Program-made: the position numbers and the translations under genes
Shown: piece after piece, positions 8,261-47,071 of the stretch
Numbering within the stretch: the first letter of the stretch is position 1
Layout: each line of letters starts with the position of its first letter
Notes under the pieces: model-generated
Database searches by the model: none
What the model saw: the letters and a program-made list of their open reading frames with translations, nothing else
What the model was told of the DNA's origin: nothing
From: Spongiibacter marinus
Lineage (GTDB): Bacteria > Pseudomonadota > Gammaproteobacteria > Pseudomonadales > Spongiibacteraceae
Length of the DNA stretch: 64,000 nt
Reading direction: 5' to 3'
Assembly: GCF_016906995.1 (NCBI RefSeq)
Contig: NZ_JAFBBD010000008.1
Span: forward strand, 186,001 to 250,000

Positions 8261-10644
8261 TGCAGATATCTAAAGCGTCGCTGCAGGTCTTCGTGCTCAC
8301 GGCGCTCGGCTATTTTCTAGCTGGGCGGTTGGCATTGTTGCTGGCGATCCCGCCTGGGTATGCCACGGCGATTTCGCCCTCGGCGGGTATTGCGCTGGTG
8401 GTGATACTCCTGCACGGCTACCGATTTTGGCCTGCCGTCGCGCTGGGCTCGTTCGCGGTAAATAGCTACGGGGCTCTGGTGTGGGGGGAAGGCATAGCGG
8501 CGTGGGCAGCGTCCGCCCAGCTGCCTTTTATTATTGCGCTGGGTGCCGCCGTGCAGGCGGTGGTGTCGGTGTATTTGTTGCGCCGCTTTATTGGTTACCC
8601 CATCACCCTGGATACCAGTAGCGATGTGCTGAAGTTTATTGTGTTGGTGTGCGGCGGTGGCAGCATGCTCAACGCCAGTGTGGGGACTGCGGCACTGTGG
8701 CAGGCTGGCGCGCTAGCGGCAGGAAACATTCCCTACAACTGGTTTACCTGGTGGGTGGGGGACGGCCTCGGGGTGATGCTGGTGGCCCCGTTGATATTTG
8801 TCTACCGAGCCCAGCCCAGAGGAATTTGGCGAAGTCGAAACCGTGTGCTCCCTTGGGTGCAGTTATTGGCATCTGTTGTCATTGTTCTTTTATACGTATT
8901 CGCCAGCCGTTGGGAGCTGGCTCGTCAGGAAACGGCCTTTGAGCGACACGCAGGGCAGCTGTATCAGCGTAGCGATGCGGTGTTGAACAGTTATTTTGAG
9001 AGCTTGTACGCGGCGCAGGCGTTCTTTGTGTCGTCATCTGAGGTGACGCCGGAGGACTTCAGGCGTTTTGTTCAGGGGGCCTTGCAGCGCAACCCTGGCT
9101 TCCAGGGTATTGCCTGGAATCGGGTGATAGCTCATTCAGAAAGGGGTGAGCTCGAGCGCCTAATGAGCCAGGAGCTTGGCGAGCCCGTGGTGTTTACGGA
9201 GGTCGATCGCAATGGCACGCGGATGCGGGCGTCGCGCCGCGAAAGTTATGTGGTGATTCGCTATATACAACCGCTAAGCAACAACCGCCGTGCCTATGGC
9301 TACGATATCAGCTCTAATCCGATTGCCCGCAATGCCTTAATGAAGGCCGCCACCAGTGGTGAGCCCTCGGCGACAGCGCCGATACGCTTGATACAAGAGC
9401 GGGGGCAACAGCTGGGCGAGGTTGTCTATTTCCCGGTGATAAAAAATGGGGCGTTGGAAGGCTATGTTGCCGGCGTGTTTCGCCTGGGGGATTTGATGTC
9501 CGCGGCCCTACAGGGCGAGAGTTTGCAGGGTATTTCCCTGCGGCTATTGAGTGCTGAAAGCAAGCCCCAGCTGCTTTTTGCCGCAGATGGCCGAGAGAGT
9601 GATGGCAAAGGCGAGATATTTCGGCGTGTGTGGGAGCTGGGCTTCGCCGATCAAACCTGGCGTCTCGAGATCAGTGGCAATCAGCAATTCTTGGTCGACA
9701 GCCGTTCGGTGATGCCCTGGGGGGTGTTGGCCACCGGGTTATTGTTTGTTGGATTGTTGGGGATGTCGCTGCTGGTGTTGACCGGGGCCAAGTATCACTC
9801 TGATGAATCCGGGCGCGAGCTGGCGGAAACCGTCAAACAGTTGCGCGATGCGCAAGGGCAGCTGGTCGAGGCAGAAAAACTGGCGGCGCTGGGCGGCATG
9901 GTTGCCGGTTTTGCTCATGAATTGAATACCCCCATCGGTATTGCCATCACCGCGCAGTCCACATTTAAGGCCGACCTGGAGCGACTTGAGGCCTTTACAG
10001 AGCTGGTGCCTGACGAAGCGGACAAGCAGCGCCGCAATGCCATTTTGCTGCGCATGAATGAAGCGGCAACCATGGTGCTGGATAACCTGCAGCGCGCCGG
10101 AAATTTGATAGGCAGTTTTAAGCAGGTGTCTGTGGACCAGTCCTCCGAGGATCGCCGGAAAATTAACCTGCATGACTACCTTCACGATGTGTTGCTGCAC
10201 CTGTCTCCGAGTTATCGTCGCGCAGGACACGAAGTGAAGTTCGAGTGCCCCCGCGACATTTACATAGAAACGGTCCCGGGAGGATTGACTCAGGTTATCG
10301 TCAACTTGATGAACAATGCGCTGAGTCACGCGTTTGTTGCGGGGCAGCAGGGGAGAATTACCCTGTCGGTGGAGCGCGCGGAGCAAGCCGTTGTCTTGCG
10401 CTTCAGTGATGATGGTCAGGGGATGGCGGATGCGGTGCGTGAGCGTATCTTTGAGCCGTTCTTTACTACCCGTCGCGGCTCCAATGCGGCGAGCGCTGGA
10501 CTCGGCTTGCATCTGGTTTACAGTATCGTTCGCCAACAACTCGACGGTGAAATTGCCGTCTCTTCAACCCCGGGCGAGGGCAGTATTTTCACTATCAGTT
10601 TGCCATTGAGCCTGGAGGCTTCGGCGCCCCCTGGGAAGGCATAA
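8260..10644 (+). CDS. MASE1-CHASE sensor histidine kinase
   Basis: A 794-residue membrane kinase. Residues about 1-240 form a MASE1 sensor of roughly eight membrane segments. Residues about 250-450 form a periplasmic CHASE domain (GFQGIAWNRVI, YVVIRYIQPLSNN, GYDISSNP), and another membrane segment lies near 490. HisKA follows with phosphoacceptor His553 in GGMVAGFAHELNTP, then HATPase_c (NLMNNALSHAF, FSDDGQGMAD, AGLGLHLVYSIV). All catalytic boxes are intact. There is no response regulator beside it, and the next gene is a convergent tetR. Its kinase core resembles that of the kinase at 42.0 kb (both have SFKQV-VDQS after the His region). The ATG at 8260 is favoured because MASE1 begins there. 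Confidence 0.9.
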   Translation: MQISKASLQVFVLTALGYFLAGRLALLLAIPPGYATAISPSAGIALVVILLHGYRFWPAVALGSFAVNSYGALVWGEGIAAWAASAQLPFIIALGAAVQAVVSVYLLRRFIGYPITLDTSSDVLKFIVLVCGGGSMLNASVGTAALWQAGALAAGNIPYNWFTWWVGDGLGVMLVAPLIFVYRAQPRGIWRSRNRVLPWVQLLASVVIVLLYVFASRWELARQETAFERHAGQLYQRSDAVLNSYFESLYAAQAFFVSSSEVTPEDFRRFVQGALQRNPGFQGIAWNRVIAHSERGELERLMSQELGEPVVFTEVDRNGTRMRASRRESYVVIRYIQPLSNNRRAYGYDISSNPIARNALMKAATSGEPSATAPIRLIQERGQQLGEVVYFPVIKNGALEGYVAGVFRLGDLMSAALQGESLQGISLRLLSAESKPQLLFAADGRESDGKGEIFRRVWELGFADQTWRLEISGNQQFLVDSRSVMPWGVLATGLLFVGLLGMSLLVLTGAKYHSDESGRELAETVKQLRDAQGQLVEAEKLAALGGMVAGFAHELNTPIGIAITAQSTFKADLERLEAFTELVPDEADKQRRNAILLRMNEAATMVLDNLQRAGNLIGSFKQVSVDQSSEDRRKINLHDYLHDVLLHLSPSYRRAGHEVKFECPRDIYIETVPGGLTQVIVNLMNNALSHAFVAGQQGRITLSVERAEQAVVLRFSDDGQGMADAVRERIFEPFFTTRRGSNAASAGLGLHLVYSIVRQQLDGEIAVSSTPGEGSIFTISLPLSLEASAPPGKA

Positions 10645-11326: not shown

Positions 11327-11372
11327 GCCGGGTACTTTACATACGTGCACGCATGTATGTAAAGTACCCGGC
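11327..11372. promoter_or_regulatory. Large palindromic operator between tetR and the RND operon
   Basis: Perfect 18-bp arms (GCCGGGTACTTTACATAC, 11327-11344, and its reverse complement at 11355-11372) are separated by ten bases. The core TTTACATAC...GTATGTAAA resembles known AcrR/TtgR/MexR-type efflux operators. The site lies 38 bases from the tetR start codon and 28 bases before the adaptor start codon, so it can block both promoters. The arms are long enough that a cruciform or an mRNA hairpin is also possible. Confidence 0.85.
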
Positions 11373-42009: not shown

Positions 42010-43227
42010 TTGAGTCGCGGCTATCCAGTCCTCACGTTGAGAGCATCGGCATTAATCGCTCTGCTCGTCACTGTCGCCGTGCTATCGATTTTGCTCGTGT
42101 TAGCAAAGCAGCATGTCGATCTGGCGCAAATCACCGTTTTTTCCCTTCTTTCTTTGGCTCTCGGTTACGCCACTTTTTACGTTTTGAGTCGTCCCCATTT
42201 CTCTGCGTTGCTGCGTTTGGCCAATACCTTGCGAAATATTGAGCAGGGAAATGGCGTGGCACCTAGCTTGGAGGTCCCCAAGGGCGAGTTAAAGGAGCTG
42301 GGTGAGGGGCTGAGTGCGATGCTTGCCGCGATGGCCTCCAGAGAAGCCAAATTTGTCGCTGCGCAGCGTGAGCTCGAACTAAAGGTGAGCGAGGTTGCGG
42401 TAAGCAATGCTGAACTGGCGGCGACGCTGCGGCGGTTAAAGGCGGCGCAGGAGCAGCTGGTAACAACGGAGAAAATGGCGTCCCTGGGTGGACTGGTTGC
42501 GGGCGTTGCGCACGAGATCAATACGCCGGTAGGTGTTGGTGTTACGGCAGTGTCCAGTATGAGTAGCCGAATCATCGACGTGCGCAATAAATACCAGGCT
42601 GGCGAGCTGGGACACCGGGAGCTGAATGACTTTCTCGACAATACCCAGCAGCACTGTGAATTGCTGCTCAGTAATCTCAGTCGCGCGGCGGAACTGGTCA
42701 GCAGCTTTAAACAGGTTGCTGTTGATCAAAGTGCGGATGGTCTGCGTGAATTTGATTTGGGGGTGTATTTGTCTGAGGTTTGGCGCAGTTTGAGCCCCCA
42801 GCTTAAGGGCACCTCGCTGCGCTACGACATGTCAGTTAATGATGATATCCGGGTGTTTAATTATCCGGGCGCCTTGTCTCAGGTACTGACTAACTTAGTG
42901 ATGAACTCCATTACCCATGGCTATGAAAGAGGGGAGGAGGGCCACCTGCAGCTGGATGTTCGCCACGATGGCGGGGAGGTCGAGTTGGTCTATCGCGATG
43001 ATGGACGGGGAATTGCTCCAGAGCACTTAGGGCAGGTCTTTGAACCATTCTTTACCACCCGGCGAGGCAGGGGCGGAAGCGGCTTAGGCATGCATATCGT
43101 CTACAATTTGGTAACTGGGCAATTGCTAGGCAGCATTGAATTGCACAGCGAGCCTGGTTGTGGTGTGGAGGTGAAAATCCGCTTCCCCGCGAATATCCAC
43201 CCGGGAGCGCAAACTGAAAATGGATAA
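42010..43227 (+). CDS. Membrane sensor histidine kinase
   Basis: A 405-residue kinase with two N-terminal membrane segments (about 8-30 and 36-56) and almost no periplasmic domain. A coiled linker (about 60-155) leads to HisKA with His168 in GGLVAGVAHEINTPVG and HATPase_c (NLVMNSITHGY, YRDDGRGIAPE, GSGLGMHIVYNLV). All boxes are intact. The TTG start is supported by GGAAGGGAGG seven bases upstream; an ATG at 42003 is in a different frame. It overlaps the next gene by eight bases and heads a four-gene signalling operon. Its kinase core resembles that of the MASE1 kinase at 8.3 kb. Confidence 0.9.
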   Translation: MSRGYPVLTLRASALIALLVTVAVLSILLVLAKQHVDLAQITVFSLLSLALGYATFYVLSRPHFSALLRLANTLRNIEQGNGVAPSLEVPKGELKELGEGLSAMLAAMASREAKFVAAQRELELKVSEVAVSNAELAATLRRLKAAQEQLVTTEKMASLGGLVAGVAHEINTPVGVGVTAVSSMSSRIIDVRNKYQAGELGHRELNDFLDNTQQHCELLLSNLSRAAELVSSFKQVAVDQSADGLREFDLGVYLSEVWRSLSPQLKGTSLRYDMSVNDDIRVFNYPGALSQVLTNLVMNSITHGYERGEEGHLQLDVRHDGGEVELVYRDDGRGIAPEHLGQVFEPFFTTRRGRGGSGLGMHIVYNLVTGQLLGSIELHSEPGCGVEVKIRFPANIHPGAQTENG

Positions 43228-44215
43228 AAGCGTGTCGCAAGAAAACGATAAATTACAACTGGCGGCCGATAGTCCTGCGGCTAGCAGCAGACATAGTGAC
43301 CCCTGGAAGTTGCTGGTGGTTGACGATGAAAAAGTCGTGCACTCTGTCACGCGGCTTGCTTTGGAGGATTTTGAACTAGGCGGGCGCGGTTTGCAGATGA
43401 TCAGTGCGTATTCGGCTGCCGAAGCGCAGACGCTACTTCAACAACACGACGATATCGCCGTGATCTTGTTGGATGTGGTCATGGAAACCGATCATGCCGG
43501 GCTGGAGTTGGCACGCTATATTCGTGAAGAGCTCGGCAATAACTTAGTGCGGATCATCCTGCGCACGGGGCAGGCGGGACAGGCGCCTGAGCACGAGGTG
43601 ATTACGCGCTACGACATCAATGATTACAAGGAAAAAACCGAACTTACCCGACAGAAATTATTTTCCACCGTCTACACCGCGCTGCGTTCCTACCGGGATC
43701 TCAGCGCGCTAGATAATAATCGACGTGGATTGTTGCGGGTCATCGAAGCCTCCGCGGCAATTTTTGAGCGCAGGCAAATGCATGCCTTTTACGACGGTGT
43801 GCTTGAGCAGATGATCGCTTTGTTATACCTAAATCGTGATGCGATGCTGATTCGAGCCTCGGGCATCGTAGCTGAAGCCCGTGAGCGTAAACTACAGATA
43901 TTGGCCTCAGCAGGTAAATTTACCAATTTCGAGGGTGAAGTGAGTTGTGACGCCTTCGACCAACTAACCGGTGAGCGCTTGCGAATTGCTTTTGAAAATA
44001 AGTCCAATAACTATGGCGACAATTACTGGGTGAGCTATTACCAAACACAGGCTGGAACCGAGCAATTATTGTACGTGTCCGCGCGAGATAATTTTTCGGT
44101 TCCTGATATCCAGATGATCGAGCTTTTTGTAAGAAACGTGGCAATCGCGCACGATAACGTGGAATTAATAGACAGCCTGCGAGATGGAAAGGGCGATGAC
44201 GGGAGTGGGAGATAA
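43220..44215 (+). CDS. Response regulator with DUF3369 output domain
   Basis: A 331-residue protein. The REC domain (about 29-150) has the acidic pocket LLVVDDEK and phosphoacceptor Asp85 in VILLDVVMETDHAGLE, plus the conserved RTGQ and DYKEKTEL. The C-terminal domain (about 165-325) is DUF3369, a GAF-like fold of unknown output, with no DNA-binding motif. It overlaps the kinase gene, so it is its likely partner. The REC domain is very similar to that of the next gene. Confidence 0.9.
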   Translation: MDKSVSQENDKLQLAADSPAASSRHSDPWKLLVVDDEKVVHSVTRLALEDFELGGRGLQMISAYSAAEAQTLLQQHDDIAVILLDVVMETDHAGLELARYIREELGNNLVRIILRTGQAGQAPEHEVITRYDINDYKEKTELTRQKLFSTVYTALRSYRDLSALDNNRRGLLRVIEASAAIFERRQMHAFYDGVLEQMIALLYLNRDAMLIRASGIVAEARERKLQILASAGKFTNFEGEVSCDAFDQLTGERLRIAFENKSNNYGDNYWVSYYQTQAGTEQLLYVSARDNFSVPDIQMIELFVRNVAIAHDNVELIDSLRDGKGDDGSGR

Positions 44216-44217
44216 CA

Positions 44218-45411
44218 GTGGCTATCGATGACCCCCTAATGCTGGCGGCAGACACCACGATACAGGGTGAGAGCCAGACACCAAATCAGGCGTCAAAAAC
44301 GTGGAAGATCCTGATTGTCGACGATGAAGAAGAAATTCATGTGGTGACGCGTTTGGCGTTGCATGACTTCACCTTTGGCGGCCGGCAGTTGGAGTTTATC
44401 AGCGCCTACTCGGGTGCTGAAGCGAAGACAATGATTCGCGAGAACCCCGATGTGGCAATTATTTTGCTGGACGTTGTGATGGAAACGGACAGCGCTGGTT
44501 TGGATGTGGCGCAATATATTCGTCAGGACCTTGGCAATCATTTTGTCCGCATTGTATTGCGAACCGGGCAGCCCGGTCTGGCTCCGGAAAGGCGGGTACT
44601 CAAAGTCTATGATATCAATGACTACCGCGCGAAAACCGAGCTCACTCAAGACCGTTTGTTCTCTGTCATTTACACGGCGTTGTCATCCTATCGCGACCTG
44701 GTTTCCCTGGCGCGAAGCCGTCACCAGCTTATCGGCTTGGTCAATGAAATTGAGCAGTTGTCTCACTTAGCGGCAAGGGATCTGCAGGTGCCGTTAAACG
44801 AAGTTGTCGGTACGGTTCGTCGCCTGTCCTCGCAAAAACAGGAGGCATTGCCTGCTGCGATTGCCGAGGATGTCATGGATATGCGGGAAAATATTTATGC
44901 AATGCAATCGGCGTTGAATAAGCTCGTTGCCCTGACGTCGGTTGGGCGTTTCAACGAGAGCCGCGAAACCGTCGACTGCAATGCGGTGATCCACGAGGTG
45001 TTGGTGAATCTCGATGCTGAGTTTCGCGCTAGCAGTGCCAATCTCCACTGTGAGACATTGCCCACGATTCACGCCTGCCACCGGCAAATGGTTCAGCTAT
45101 TCCAGAACCTGATCAGCAATGCCATTCGCTTCACAGAAGGTCATGCACCGGACATTTATATCAATGCCGTTACTCACGAGCGGAACTGGTTGTTTTCGGT
45201 GACGGATACCGGTCGAGGTATCAGTCCTGAGCAGCACAGTAGCTTGTTCAACCTGTTCCATCGCGATAGCACCGAGGGTGTCTCCAAGGAATCTGGTGTG
45301 GGACTGGCGATATGCGAAAAAATCGTGCGCTGGCACGGTGGGAAAATCTGGTTGGAGTCTGAGGTCGGCAAGGGGTCGACATTTTACTTCACCATCCCTC
45401 TAAGCGAGTAA
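44218..45411 (+). CDS. REC-histidine kinase hybrid lacking the phosphoacceptor histidine
   Basis: A 397-residue protein. The REC domain (about 29-150; LIVDDEEE, Asp85 in IILLDVVMETDSAGLD) is followed by a phytochrome-class dimerisation helix and HATPase_c (LFQNLISNAIRF, VTDTGRGISPE, SGVGLAICEKIVRWHGG). In that class the H-box reads ASHDLQEPL; here it reads AARDLQVPL, with Arg187 replacing the phosphoacceptor His. The ATP-binding boxes are intact. It should therefore bind ATP but not autophosphorylate at the normal site, and may act as a phosphatase, scaffold or allosteric partner. It starts at GTG two bases after the DUF3369 gene. Confidence 0.88.
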   Translation: MAIDDPLMLAADTTIQGESQTPNQASKTWKILIVDDEEEIHVVTRLALHDFTFGGRQLEFISAYSGAEAKTMIRENPDVAIILLDVVMETDSAGLDVAQYIRQDLGNHFVRIVLRTGQPGLAPERRVLKVYDINDYRAKTELTQDRLFSVIYTALSSYRDLVSLARSRHQLIGLVNEIEQLSHLAARDLQVPLNEVVGTVRRLSSQKQEALPAAIAEDVMDMRENIYAMQSALNKLVALTSVGRFNESRETVDCNAVIHEVLVNLDAEFRASSANLHCETLPTIHACHRQMVQLFQNLISNAIRFTEGHAPDIYINAVTHERNWLFSVTDTGRGISPEQHSSLFNLFHRDSTEGVSKESGVGLAICEKIVRWHGGKIWLESEVGKGSTFYFTIPLSE

Positions 45412-45421
45412 GGGGCGAGCG

Positions 45422-47071
45422 ATGCGTGCTGACTGGATCGTTTCGGGCCTCTCACAGGCGATACTGTGCACGGATGACGAGGTTAATATCTGTTATCTCA
45501 ACCCCGCGGCTGAGCAGCTATTAGCGGTAAAGAGTAGCAATGTGTGTGGCAAGCCGGTCAGCGAAGCGCTCGGGTTAAAGGATGAGGCCGGCGGCATGTT
45601 AACGGCGGCCTCGCTGAAGGACCTTTGCGCGCAGAATCATGAGGCGAGACTGCGTTTATCGGCAGAGGGAGGCGCGCACGAAGCCGAGCTAGCGGCGAGT
45701 GTGTCGCCCGTCCACGATGGGGCGGGAGAGCAAGTGGGTTACAGTCTCATGCTTGCATCTCATACCTTGTCGAATCTCGACAACGCCGGTGCCGACCCAT
45801 TAACCTCTTTGGAAGGACGAAAGGAATTCGAGCACCGCATTGATAACTTGGTGAATGATGCTGCCACCAGCTCCCGCACTCATGCATTGCTCTACATCGA
45901 TATTGACCAGTTTAAGCTGGTCAATGACACCAGTGGGCATGGCGCGGGTGACAACCTGATTAAGGTGGTTGGGGAGTGTATTCAAGATGAATTGTTTACC
46001 GGCGACCTACTTTACCGTTTAGGGGGCGACGAGTTTGGTGTGCTGTTGAGCAATGTTGACGCGTTTGAAGCGCGCGCTATTGCCACGCGCTTGGTTAAGG
46101 CCGTTAAGCGCATCAATTTCAACTGGGGCAATATCAGCCACCGTGTATCGGTAAGTATTGGCGTTGTCCTTATTGACCAGTATTCCCTGGAACGTCAGAC
46201 CGTGATGAGTCAGGCCGATTTGGCGATGTACTCCGCTAAGGATAATGGCCGAGATCGCGTTCACATATACGATGTGCAAGATAAAAACCTTAGTCGCCTG
46301 CATGACGAGATGGATTGGGTGCACCGTATAAACGAAGCCCTGAGCAACGACGACTTTTGTCTGGTGCGCGAGCACATCGTATCGCTGGGTGATGACACCT
46401 CAGCGCTAAGCTATAGTGAGTTGTTGCTTCGCATGAAGTACAAAGGCGAGCTGCTCAGCCCGGGGCAATTCATGCCAGCGGCGGAGCGCTTTGGCCTTAT
46501 GCCGCAGGTGGACCGATGGGTTGTCAATGCCGCCATTGCATACCTTCGCGCGAATCCACAGTTAAAGCCTGGCGAAAATATGTTTTCGGTTAATATCTCC
46601 GGGCAGTCACTGTGTCAGGAAGCCTTCCTTGAGTTTGTCTATAGAAAACTTCGCCGTGGTCATGTTGATCCGGGGCTGATTTGTTTCGAAATTACTGAAA
46701 CGGTTGCGATCACCAATTACTCAGTAGTGACGCGCTTTATTGAGCGCGTGCATGAATTGGGAGGGCAGTTCGCACTCGATGACTTTGGTACGGGCATGTC
46801 GTCCTTCGGATATCTGCAAGAGCTGCCGGTGGATTTTGTCAAAATAGATGGGCTCTTTGTCCACGATATGGACACCAACCCCGTGCACGAGGCCATGGTT
46901 CGATCTATCAATGACATCAGTCATGTGCTTGGCAAGCGGACTATTGCGGAGTTTGTCGAGCGAGAGTCAGTGCAAGACAAGCTGCGTGACTTAGGTGTCG
47001 ATTTTAGTCAGGGGTATTTGCACGGTCGCCCAGCGCCGCTGTTAGATGGCAGGGCACAGGCGAACTCCTGA
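45422..47071 (+). CDS. PAS-GGDEF-EAL c-di-GMP signalling protein
   Basis: A 549-residue cytoplasmic protein: a PAS domain (about 5-115), a GGDEF domain (about 130-285, intact RLGGDEFGVLL), and an EAL domain (about 300-540). The EAL signature reads ELLLRMKYK. Downstream EAL residues are conserved: Asn in FSVNISGQ, Glu in FEITET, DDFGTG, Lys in VKIDG, and Glu in AEFVE. No RxxD inhibitory site lies before GGDEF. Both synthase and phosphodiesterase activities are therefore possible. It starts ten bases after the REC-kinase behind GGGGCGAG, so it is probably the output of the operon. Confidence 0.92.
   Translation: MRADWIVSGLSQAILCTDDEVNICYLNPAAEQLLAVKSSNVCGKPVSEALGLKDEAGGMLTAASLKDLCAQNHEARLRLSAEGGAHEAELAASVSPVHDGAGEQVGYSLMLASHTLSNLDNAGADPLTSLEGRKEFEHRIDNLVNDAATSSRTHALLYIDIDQFKLVNDTSGHGAGDNLIKVVGECIQDELFTGDLLYRLGGDEFGVLLSNVDAFEARAIATRLVKAVKRINFNWGNISHRVSVSIGVVLIDQYSLERQTVMSQADLAMYSAKDNGRDRVHIYDVQDKNLSRLHDEMDWVHRINEALSNDDFCLVREHIVSLGDDTSALSYSELLLRMKYKGELLSPGQFMPAAERFGLMPQVDRWVVNAAIAYLRANPQLKPGENMFSVNISGQSLCQEAFLEFVYRKLRRGHVDPGLICFEITETVAITNYSVVTRFIERVHELGGQFALDDFGTGMSSFGYLQELPVDFVKIDGLFVHDMDTNPVHEAMVRSINDISHVLGKRTIAEFVERESVQDKLRDLGVDFSQGYLHGRPAPLLDGRAQANS

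Follow-up and report, generated by a model that had tools for sequence, protein, structure and literature searches.

The window analyzed here, a 64,000-nucleotide stretch of a Spongiibacter marinus contig (NZ_JAFBBD010000008.1, positions 186,001 to 250,000), carries at 42010-47071 four co-directional and tightly packed open reading frames, whose coordinates we have checked. These encode a membrane histidine kinase, a REC-DUF3369 protein, a kinase-like protein with a receiver that lacks the phospho-acceptor histidine (referred to as the pseudokinase), and a PAS-GGDEF-EAL protein. With moderate confidence, we interpret this operon as a derived cyclic di-GMP (c-di-GMP) module, the core of which consists of the pseudokinase, as a Rec-controlled protein, and the PAS-GGDEF-EAL protein, acting by receiver-gated contact. 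That these marine bacteria preserve a dead kinase under very strong selection, with a member of the c-di-GMP enzyme family as its neighbor in the relatives examined, suggests that it works as a switch. No published description of this four-gene set was found in the literature that we searched, which leaves out most subscription journals.

A receiver-bearing kinase without its histidine

The pseudokinase gene (44218-45411, on the plus strand like the other three) encodes a protein with a REC - HisKA-like - HATPase layout, in which Pfam recognizes HATPase_c, with Response_reg scoring below the cut-off; HisKA has no Pfam match either in this protein or in the operon kinase. Arg187 (codon 44776-44778) aligns with the His of its relatives and of related HisKA domains, and both the receiver Asp85 (codon 44470-44472) and the ATP-site boxes are intact. 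Here and below, the names given to the kinase boxes, to the RxxD site and to the GGDEF and EAL residues are motif assignments that we take to be the accepted ones. A previous sequence-only reading of this DNA had described the third protein as a kinase devoid of its His, and this proves true throughout the Spongiibacteraceae, since none of the 19 homologues examined has a phospho-acceptor His (Arg in 18, Asp in one). Both residues occur in the sister genus g2, with Arg at locus L025 and Asp at L034. As for the window's own GTDB genus, which we sampled as 18 genomes including that of the window, all 17 pseudokinases have Arg at this position, together with the D/D/D/T/K residues of the receiver and the N, G1 and G2 boxes. 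Some of the genomes compared are incomplete, such as G016 at 84% and G003 at 70%, and the pseudokinase results do not include G003. Moreover, the receiver Lys and the His, Arg or Asp lie 48 residues apart in each of the 29 homologues compared, with or without a live transmitter, and this constant spacing indicates that the receiver-transmitter geometry has been kept.

Among the four genes, the pseudokinase is also under the tightest constraint, with omega values of 0.028, 0.015 and 0.022 in three close pairs (Nei-Gojobori), the lowest each time, the other three genes ranging from 0.028 to 0.116. Such values, and the intact boxes, led us to reject decay of the third gene. When domain identities are averaged pairwise over 13 full operons, the best-conserved receiver is that of the pseudokinase (92.0%, versus 80.2% in REC-DUF3369), DHp and CA of the same protein being at 80.6% and 81.7%; DUF3369 itself is at 63.6%. 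The protein therefore displays the REC-DHp-CA architecture of a Rec-controlled kinase, as judged by Pfam, a structural model and Foldseek, as well as the features that define a histidine pseudokinase, that is, a kinase fold that is kept, a His that is lost, and purifying selection. The structural model has a predicted local distance difference test score (pLDDT) of 64.9 and a predicted template modeling score (pTM) of 0.41, and the six best chains returned for it by Foldseek all correspond to LvrB, with template modeling (TM) scores of 0.33-0.34 by query length.

The neighboring gene (45422-47071) encodes a protein in which Pfam identifies GGDEF and EAL domains, with PAS just below the cut-off. 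Both domains have intact catalytic motifs, which are kept in all 17 cases in the genus, and the RxxD inhibitory site is absent. Its GGDEF and EAL domains average 80.0% and 84.4% identity. The pseudokinase gene adjoins this gene in 17 of the 18 genus genomes, and both are missing in the 18th (G015). Two precedents are relevant. In LvrB, according to the accessible part of its description, phosphorylation of the receiver leads to a coiled coil and releases a catalytic domain, reshaping the transmitter (PMC13269768), and DivL is portrayed in the available text as a His-less transmitter kept as a binding module (PMC4211667). Since adjacency holds in 17 of 17 pseudokinase-bearing genomes, these precedents make receiver-gated contact the simplest reading.

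Gene loss around the pseudokinase pair

The four genes had been described as co-directional and overlapping or within ten bases of one another, which is accurate: the kinase and REC-DUF3369 genes overlap by 8 bases, and the next two gaps measure 2 and 10 bases. They had also been expected to form a conserved neighborhood, and 13 of the 18 genus genomes do have all four, arranged from kinase to PAS-GGDEF-EAL as in the window, which is more than chance. As for the remaining five, G020 has the kinase, pseudokinase and GGDEF-EAL genes, REC-DUF3369 being absent from the operon; in G013 these three are joined by a receiver of 185 residues that has no DUF3369; only the pseudokinase and GGDEF-EAL genes are left in G014 and G018, with neither the operon kinase nor REC-DUF3369 in the operon; and in G015 all four genes are gone, leaving the flanking ABC1 and patatin genes ~230 bases apart. 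In a tree of the ABC1 protein, the window genome and G011 form a group with G020 (97/98), as do G018 and G015 with each other (99/96), from which it follows that REC-DUF3369 was lost at least twice, a count based on the tree of this one gene. Because four genomes keep the pseudokinase and the GGDEF-EAL protein without an intact REC-DUF3369, we consider that pair as the core. The sequence-only reading had instead placed one kinase and two receivers at the center, which does not agree with the loss or truncation of REC-DUF3369 in these four genomes, two of which have no operon kinase either. In G013 and G014, another, longer DUF3369 protein is encoded elsewhere beside another kinase, and second stand-alone REC-DUF3369 genes are seen in different gene contexts in G010 (L041) and G016 (L026).

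These losses bear on a DivL-like arrangement, in which the pseudokinase transmitter would bind a phosphorylated receiver in trans and damp or boost the operon kinase, the GGDEF-EAL protein being regulated separately via its PAS domain. DivL, in the sections available of PMC4211667, has Tyr for His and is reported to bind DivK~P and to be active neither as a kinase nor as a phosphatase, and a DivL structure (4q20) is among the structure matches of the pseudokinase model. However, the pseudokinase is still present in genomes that have lost REC-DUF3369 and the operon kinase, it is always followed by the GGDEF-EAL gene in its 17 occurrences in the genus, and a fused receiver is no part of DivL as described in those sections, which together make this arrangement unlikely. 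The intact receiver and ATP-site boxes of the 17 His-less proteins could also point to a phosphate sink, the receiver draining the kinase, or to a heterodimer, the ATP domain acting on the His of the operon kinase, with the GGDEF-EAL gene merely co-transcribed. Yet both sites are intact in G014 and G018, which have no operon kinase, and the two transmitters have, by eye, H-boxes set in regions of different types, so that we regard either role as very unlikely.

The REC-DUF3369 gene (43220-44215) encodes a protein in which Pfam finds Response_reg and DUF3369, with the presumed phospho-acceptor at Asp85 (codon 43472-43474), and which stops shortly past DUF3369, without a fused HD-GYP, EAL or other output. 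Its receiver and that of the pseudokinase are 65% identical (86 of 133 residues), which makes them close paralogues rather than "near-identical" as first described. The structural model of this protein is poor (pLDDT 52.6), and its Foldseek match to a dual sensor histidine kinase (6ob8 and 6oaq), a REC-GAF protein, is a hint only; a profile search of the PDB with the REC-DUF3369 protein matched receivers only. In the order but outside the family, the 23 loci examined among the best REC-DUF3369 matches, a sample that favors high scores, are all fused to c-di-GMP domains, namely EAL in eight (seven of them with GGDEF) and HD-GYP-like domains, identified by motif, in 15; when Pfam was run on these fusions, it detected HD_5 in five of five HD-GYP-like proteins tested and EAL in three of three. 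The REC-DUF3369-HD-GYP protein VCA0210 is an active phosphodiesterase, as stated in the accessible part of the report (PMC4212101). On the basis of the 23 loci, we reject DUF3369 as a terminal output in general; often it is not one. The idea that DUF3369 is an output of its own fails in the 23 fused loci and keeps some ground in stand-alone REC-DUF3369 proteins, which exist outside the family too (L152-L155, L158-L160, L162, L196, L198, L201, L203 and L204). In Pseudoalteromonas, a DUF3369-type receiver and hybrid histidine kinase domains occur within one protein (L069:4938-7313, by eye).

The pathway initially proposed, with one kinase acting on the two receivers, a separate output for REC-DUF3369 and the GGDEF-EAL protein as a common output, would account for the presence of the four genes together in 13 genomes, and the identity between the receivers fits one shared kinase. 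We nonetheless find it quite unlikely, given that REC-DUF3369, and in some cases the operon kinase as well, is missing from several lineages, and that DUF3369 elsewhere often lies between REC and c-di-GMP domains.

Beyond the genus, the pseudokinase was searched for in a sample of 390 genomes from the order, with the four best candidates scored per genome; this returned 17 matches of 654-797 bits, all of them in the family, the rest being at or below 253 bits. A contig scan with two strict peptide patterns retrieved 12 loci, all from Spongiibacteraceae, besides a single weak match that is unrelated. On both counts, close matches are confined to the family and we reject a widespread set. No close homologue was found on plasmids by tblastn.

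Relatives with the histidine and the fate of the sensor

In the sister genus g2, represented by G001 (L025, Litorivivens lipolytica) and G002 (L034), the L025 operon consists of a TonB receptor and a CHASE8-HAMP kinase (the receptor and CHASE8 shown by Pfam) on either side of YfiR (DUF4154), followed by REC-DUF3369, the pseudokinase and, last, a GGDEF-EAL protein; this layout recurs in L034, where YfiR was confirmed. The GGDEF-EAL proteins of this genus (L025:3162-4283 and L034:3036-4274) have lost both catalytic motifs and are still in the operon. In another gammaproteobacterial order, a protein search of 85 genomes identified 10 Rec-kinases in nine genomes (E <= 1e-60), all 10 with the His, and in one such homologue all three domains exceed the Pfam cut-off. 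Seven of the 10 adjoin a TonB-YfiR-CHASE8 kinase set, six of these with REC-DUF3369 between the kinase and the Rec-kinase, the seventh (L202) lying at a contig end. In two of the 10, a small receiver gene directly follows the Rec-kinase (L152, by Pfam; L196, by eye). CHASE8-HAMP is joined to HATPase_c, not to GGDEF, in L025, L152 and L222. The presence of the His in the other order means that it is most simply ancestral and that its loss belongs to the Spongiibacteraceae. The window operon is thus probably a derived form of a TonB receptor - YfiR - CHASE8 histidine kinase - REC-DUF3369 - His-bearing Rec-kinase module.

The operon kinase (42010-43227) is a 405-aa membrane protein with a Pfam HATPase_c match and an intact H-box (GVAHEINTP), in which His168 corresponds to codon 42511-42513. 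As previously noticed, it has almost no periplasmic sensor: two hydrophobic segments, identified by eye, lie so close together that the periplasmic loop is nearly nil. A wrong start or a frameshift hiding a sensor was rejected, as only ~150 bases separate the gene from its upstream neighbor; YfiR and CHASE8 have no Pfam match in the four operon proteins, and there is no room for them upstream of the kinase. This missing sensor is a derived state. The kinase is also 405 aa long in G011, 409 in G020 and 454 in G013, and 479-544 in 11 other full operons; the sensor region is absent in the window, G011 and G020, which form one group, and about half gone in G006 and G012. Identity of the kinase over the full operons is 27.2% in the sensor and transmembrane part, 45.0% in the HAMP region, 67.3% in DHp and 59.9% in CA. 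While Pfam finds no CHASE8 in three genus kinases scanned, comparison of a profile of nine genus sensor regions with one of nine CHASE8 regions gave a probability of 91.7%, over just 51 columns, and the kinases of relatives carry a periplasmic domain that is either CHASE8 or, probably, CHASE8-like. Elsewhere in the window, positions 9808-10626 of the plus strand encode the transmitter of a further histidine kinase, belonging to the operon-kinase class (190 bits, 39% identity), with no receiver gene apparent by eye in the bases just beyond.

The window genome possesses, ~82 kb from the operon, a separate TonB-YfiR-CHASE8-kinase operon (C8:141839-145874), which is present in eight of the 18 genus genomes (split over two contig ends in G008). 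No receiver gene was seen downstream of it in the seven complete cases, using a family-tuned model and gene lists that do not include all small genes. In G019, a divergent REC-EAL gene (L223:395-2347, REC by eye) lies ~470 bases upstream of this operon. The kinases of the separate operon, of the window-type operon and of g2 form one clade (100/97), in which the two genus groups are weakly joined (83/47). The separate operon is found in eight of 13 full-operon genomes versus none of the five others (P = 0.029, uncorrected for kinship), an association with REC-DUF3369 that is suggestive only, five of the 13 being without it.

We propose the following scenario, in which phosphotransfer, contact, the direction of control and the sequence of evolutionary changes are inferred, whereas gene order, gene losses, residue conservation, selection and family relations are observed. 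The Rec-kinase of the ancestral module would have lost its His in the Spongiibacteraceae, with Arg throughout the genus, and the next gene downstream is that of the GGDEF-EAL protein, in the position of the small receiver gene of two His-bearing loci. Within the genus, the sensor of the kinase that accompanies the regulators would have been lost or eroded, some species having a related CHASE8 kinase with TonB-YfiR elsewhere. The operon kinase, and the CHASE8 kinase where present, would transfer phosphate to Asp85 of each receiver, a modification that, within the pseudokinase, would shift the signaling helix and free or lock its ATP-binding domains in the manner of LvrB. As a missing His passes no phosphate, the conformational change would act by contact on the PAS-GGDEF-EAL protein, setting its cyclase/phosphodiesterase balance. 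REC-DUF3369 would be an accessory branch, dispensable in some species. Put more tentatively, the pathway may end in a kinase-dead, probably ATP-binding Rec-transmitter, a phosphorylation-gated allosteric switch setting a c-di-GMP enzyme in trans, in which Arg would be a fixed working residue and the input would have moved to the separate TonB-YfiR-CHASE8 operon.

Several observations weigh against this proposal. G014 and G018 are without the operon kinase, and a related kinase exists elsewhere in G014 (49%), G018 offering a 41% match only. The GGDEF-EAL protein of g2 is only 25% identical and has no PAS domain, and the loss of both active sites means that an enzymatic output does not hold there. 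PAS, a likely contact domain, is poorly conserved (33.5%), and the joint loss of the pseudokinase and GGDEF-EAL genes is a single event. The pseudokinase model is of modest confidence with low-TM PDB matches, and the nearest His-bearing group is not resolved in the Rec-kinase tree.

Apart from the operon, the window contains at 11338-11361 an imperfect palindrome, TACATACGTGCACGCATGTATGTA, which is a possible operator, flanked, judging by eye, by a TetR-type gene on the minus strand and, on the plus strand, a gene for an efflux membrane-fusion protein.

Comparison with known systems

REC-DUF3369 resembles the corresponding part of VCA0210-type REC-DUF3369-HD-GYP phosphodiesterases (PMC4212101, accessible part), which differ in having a fused HD-GYP, the window protein having no fused output of any kind. 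With YfiBNR, as outlined in the available text of PMC4655355, the module shares YfiR and CHASE8-HAMP, which occur in one g2 operon, in the operons that have the His and in the separate operon of the window genome. However, in these operons the membrane protein has a histidine kinase part in place of GGDEF, and a TonB-type receptor is part of the operon; moreover, YfiR, CHASE8 and TonB parts are all absent from the window operon itself.

Rec-controlled kinases are described as frequent in the consulted part of PMC13269768; a pseudokinase form of them was not found in the literature searched, within the same limits as above. The family provides a natural series, with the His in one order, none in another, and genomes in which other parts have been dropped. 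With it, one can test which functions remain to a receiver-gated transmitter that passes on no phosphate, and in what way a cascade with a membrane sensor can be rewired toward c-di-GMP. Among known His-less transmitters, DivL of Caulobacter is likewise retained as a regulatory part but, in the sections available of PMC4211667, has PAS sensor domains and weak ATP binding, whereas the window protein has a fused receiver and intact ATP-site boxes. With LvrB and other Rec-controlled histidine kinases (PDB 8vc9; PMC13269768, as far as its text was accessible), the pseudokinase shares the REC-DHp-CA layout and an intact receiver; they give its top Foldseek matches, and it differs from them by an Arg in place of the His and by its GGDEF-EAL neighbor.

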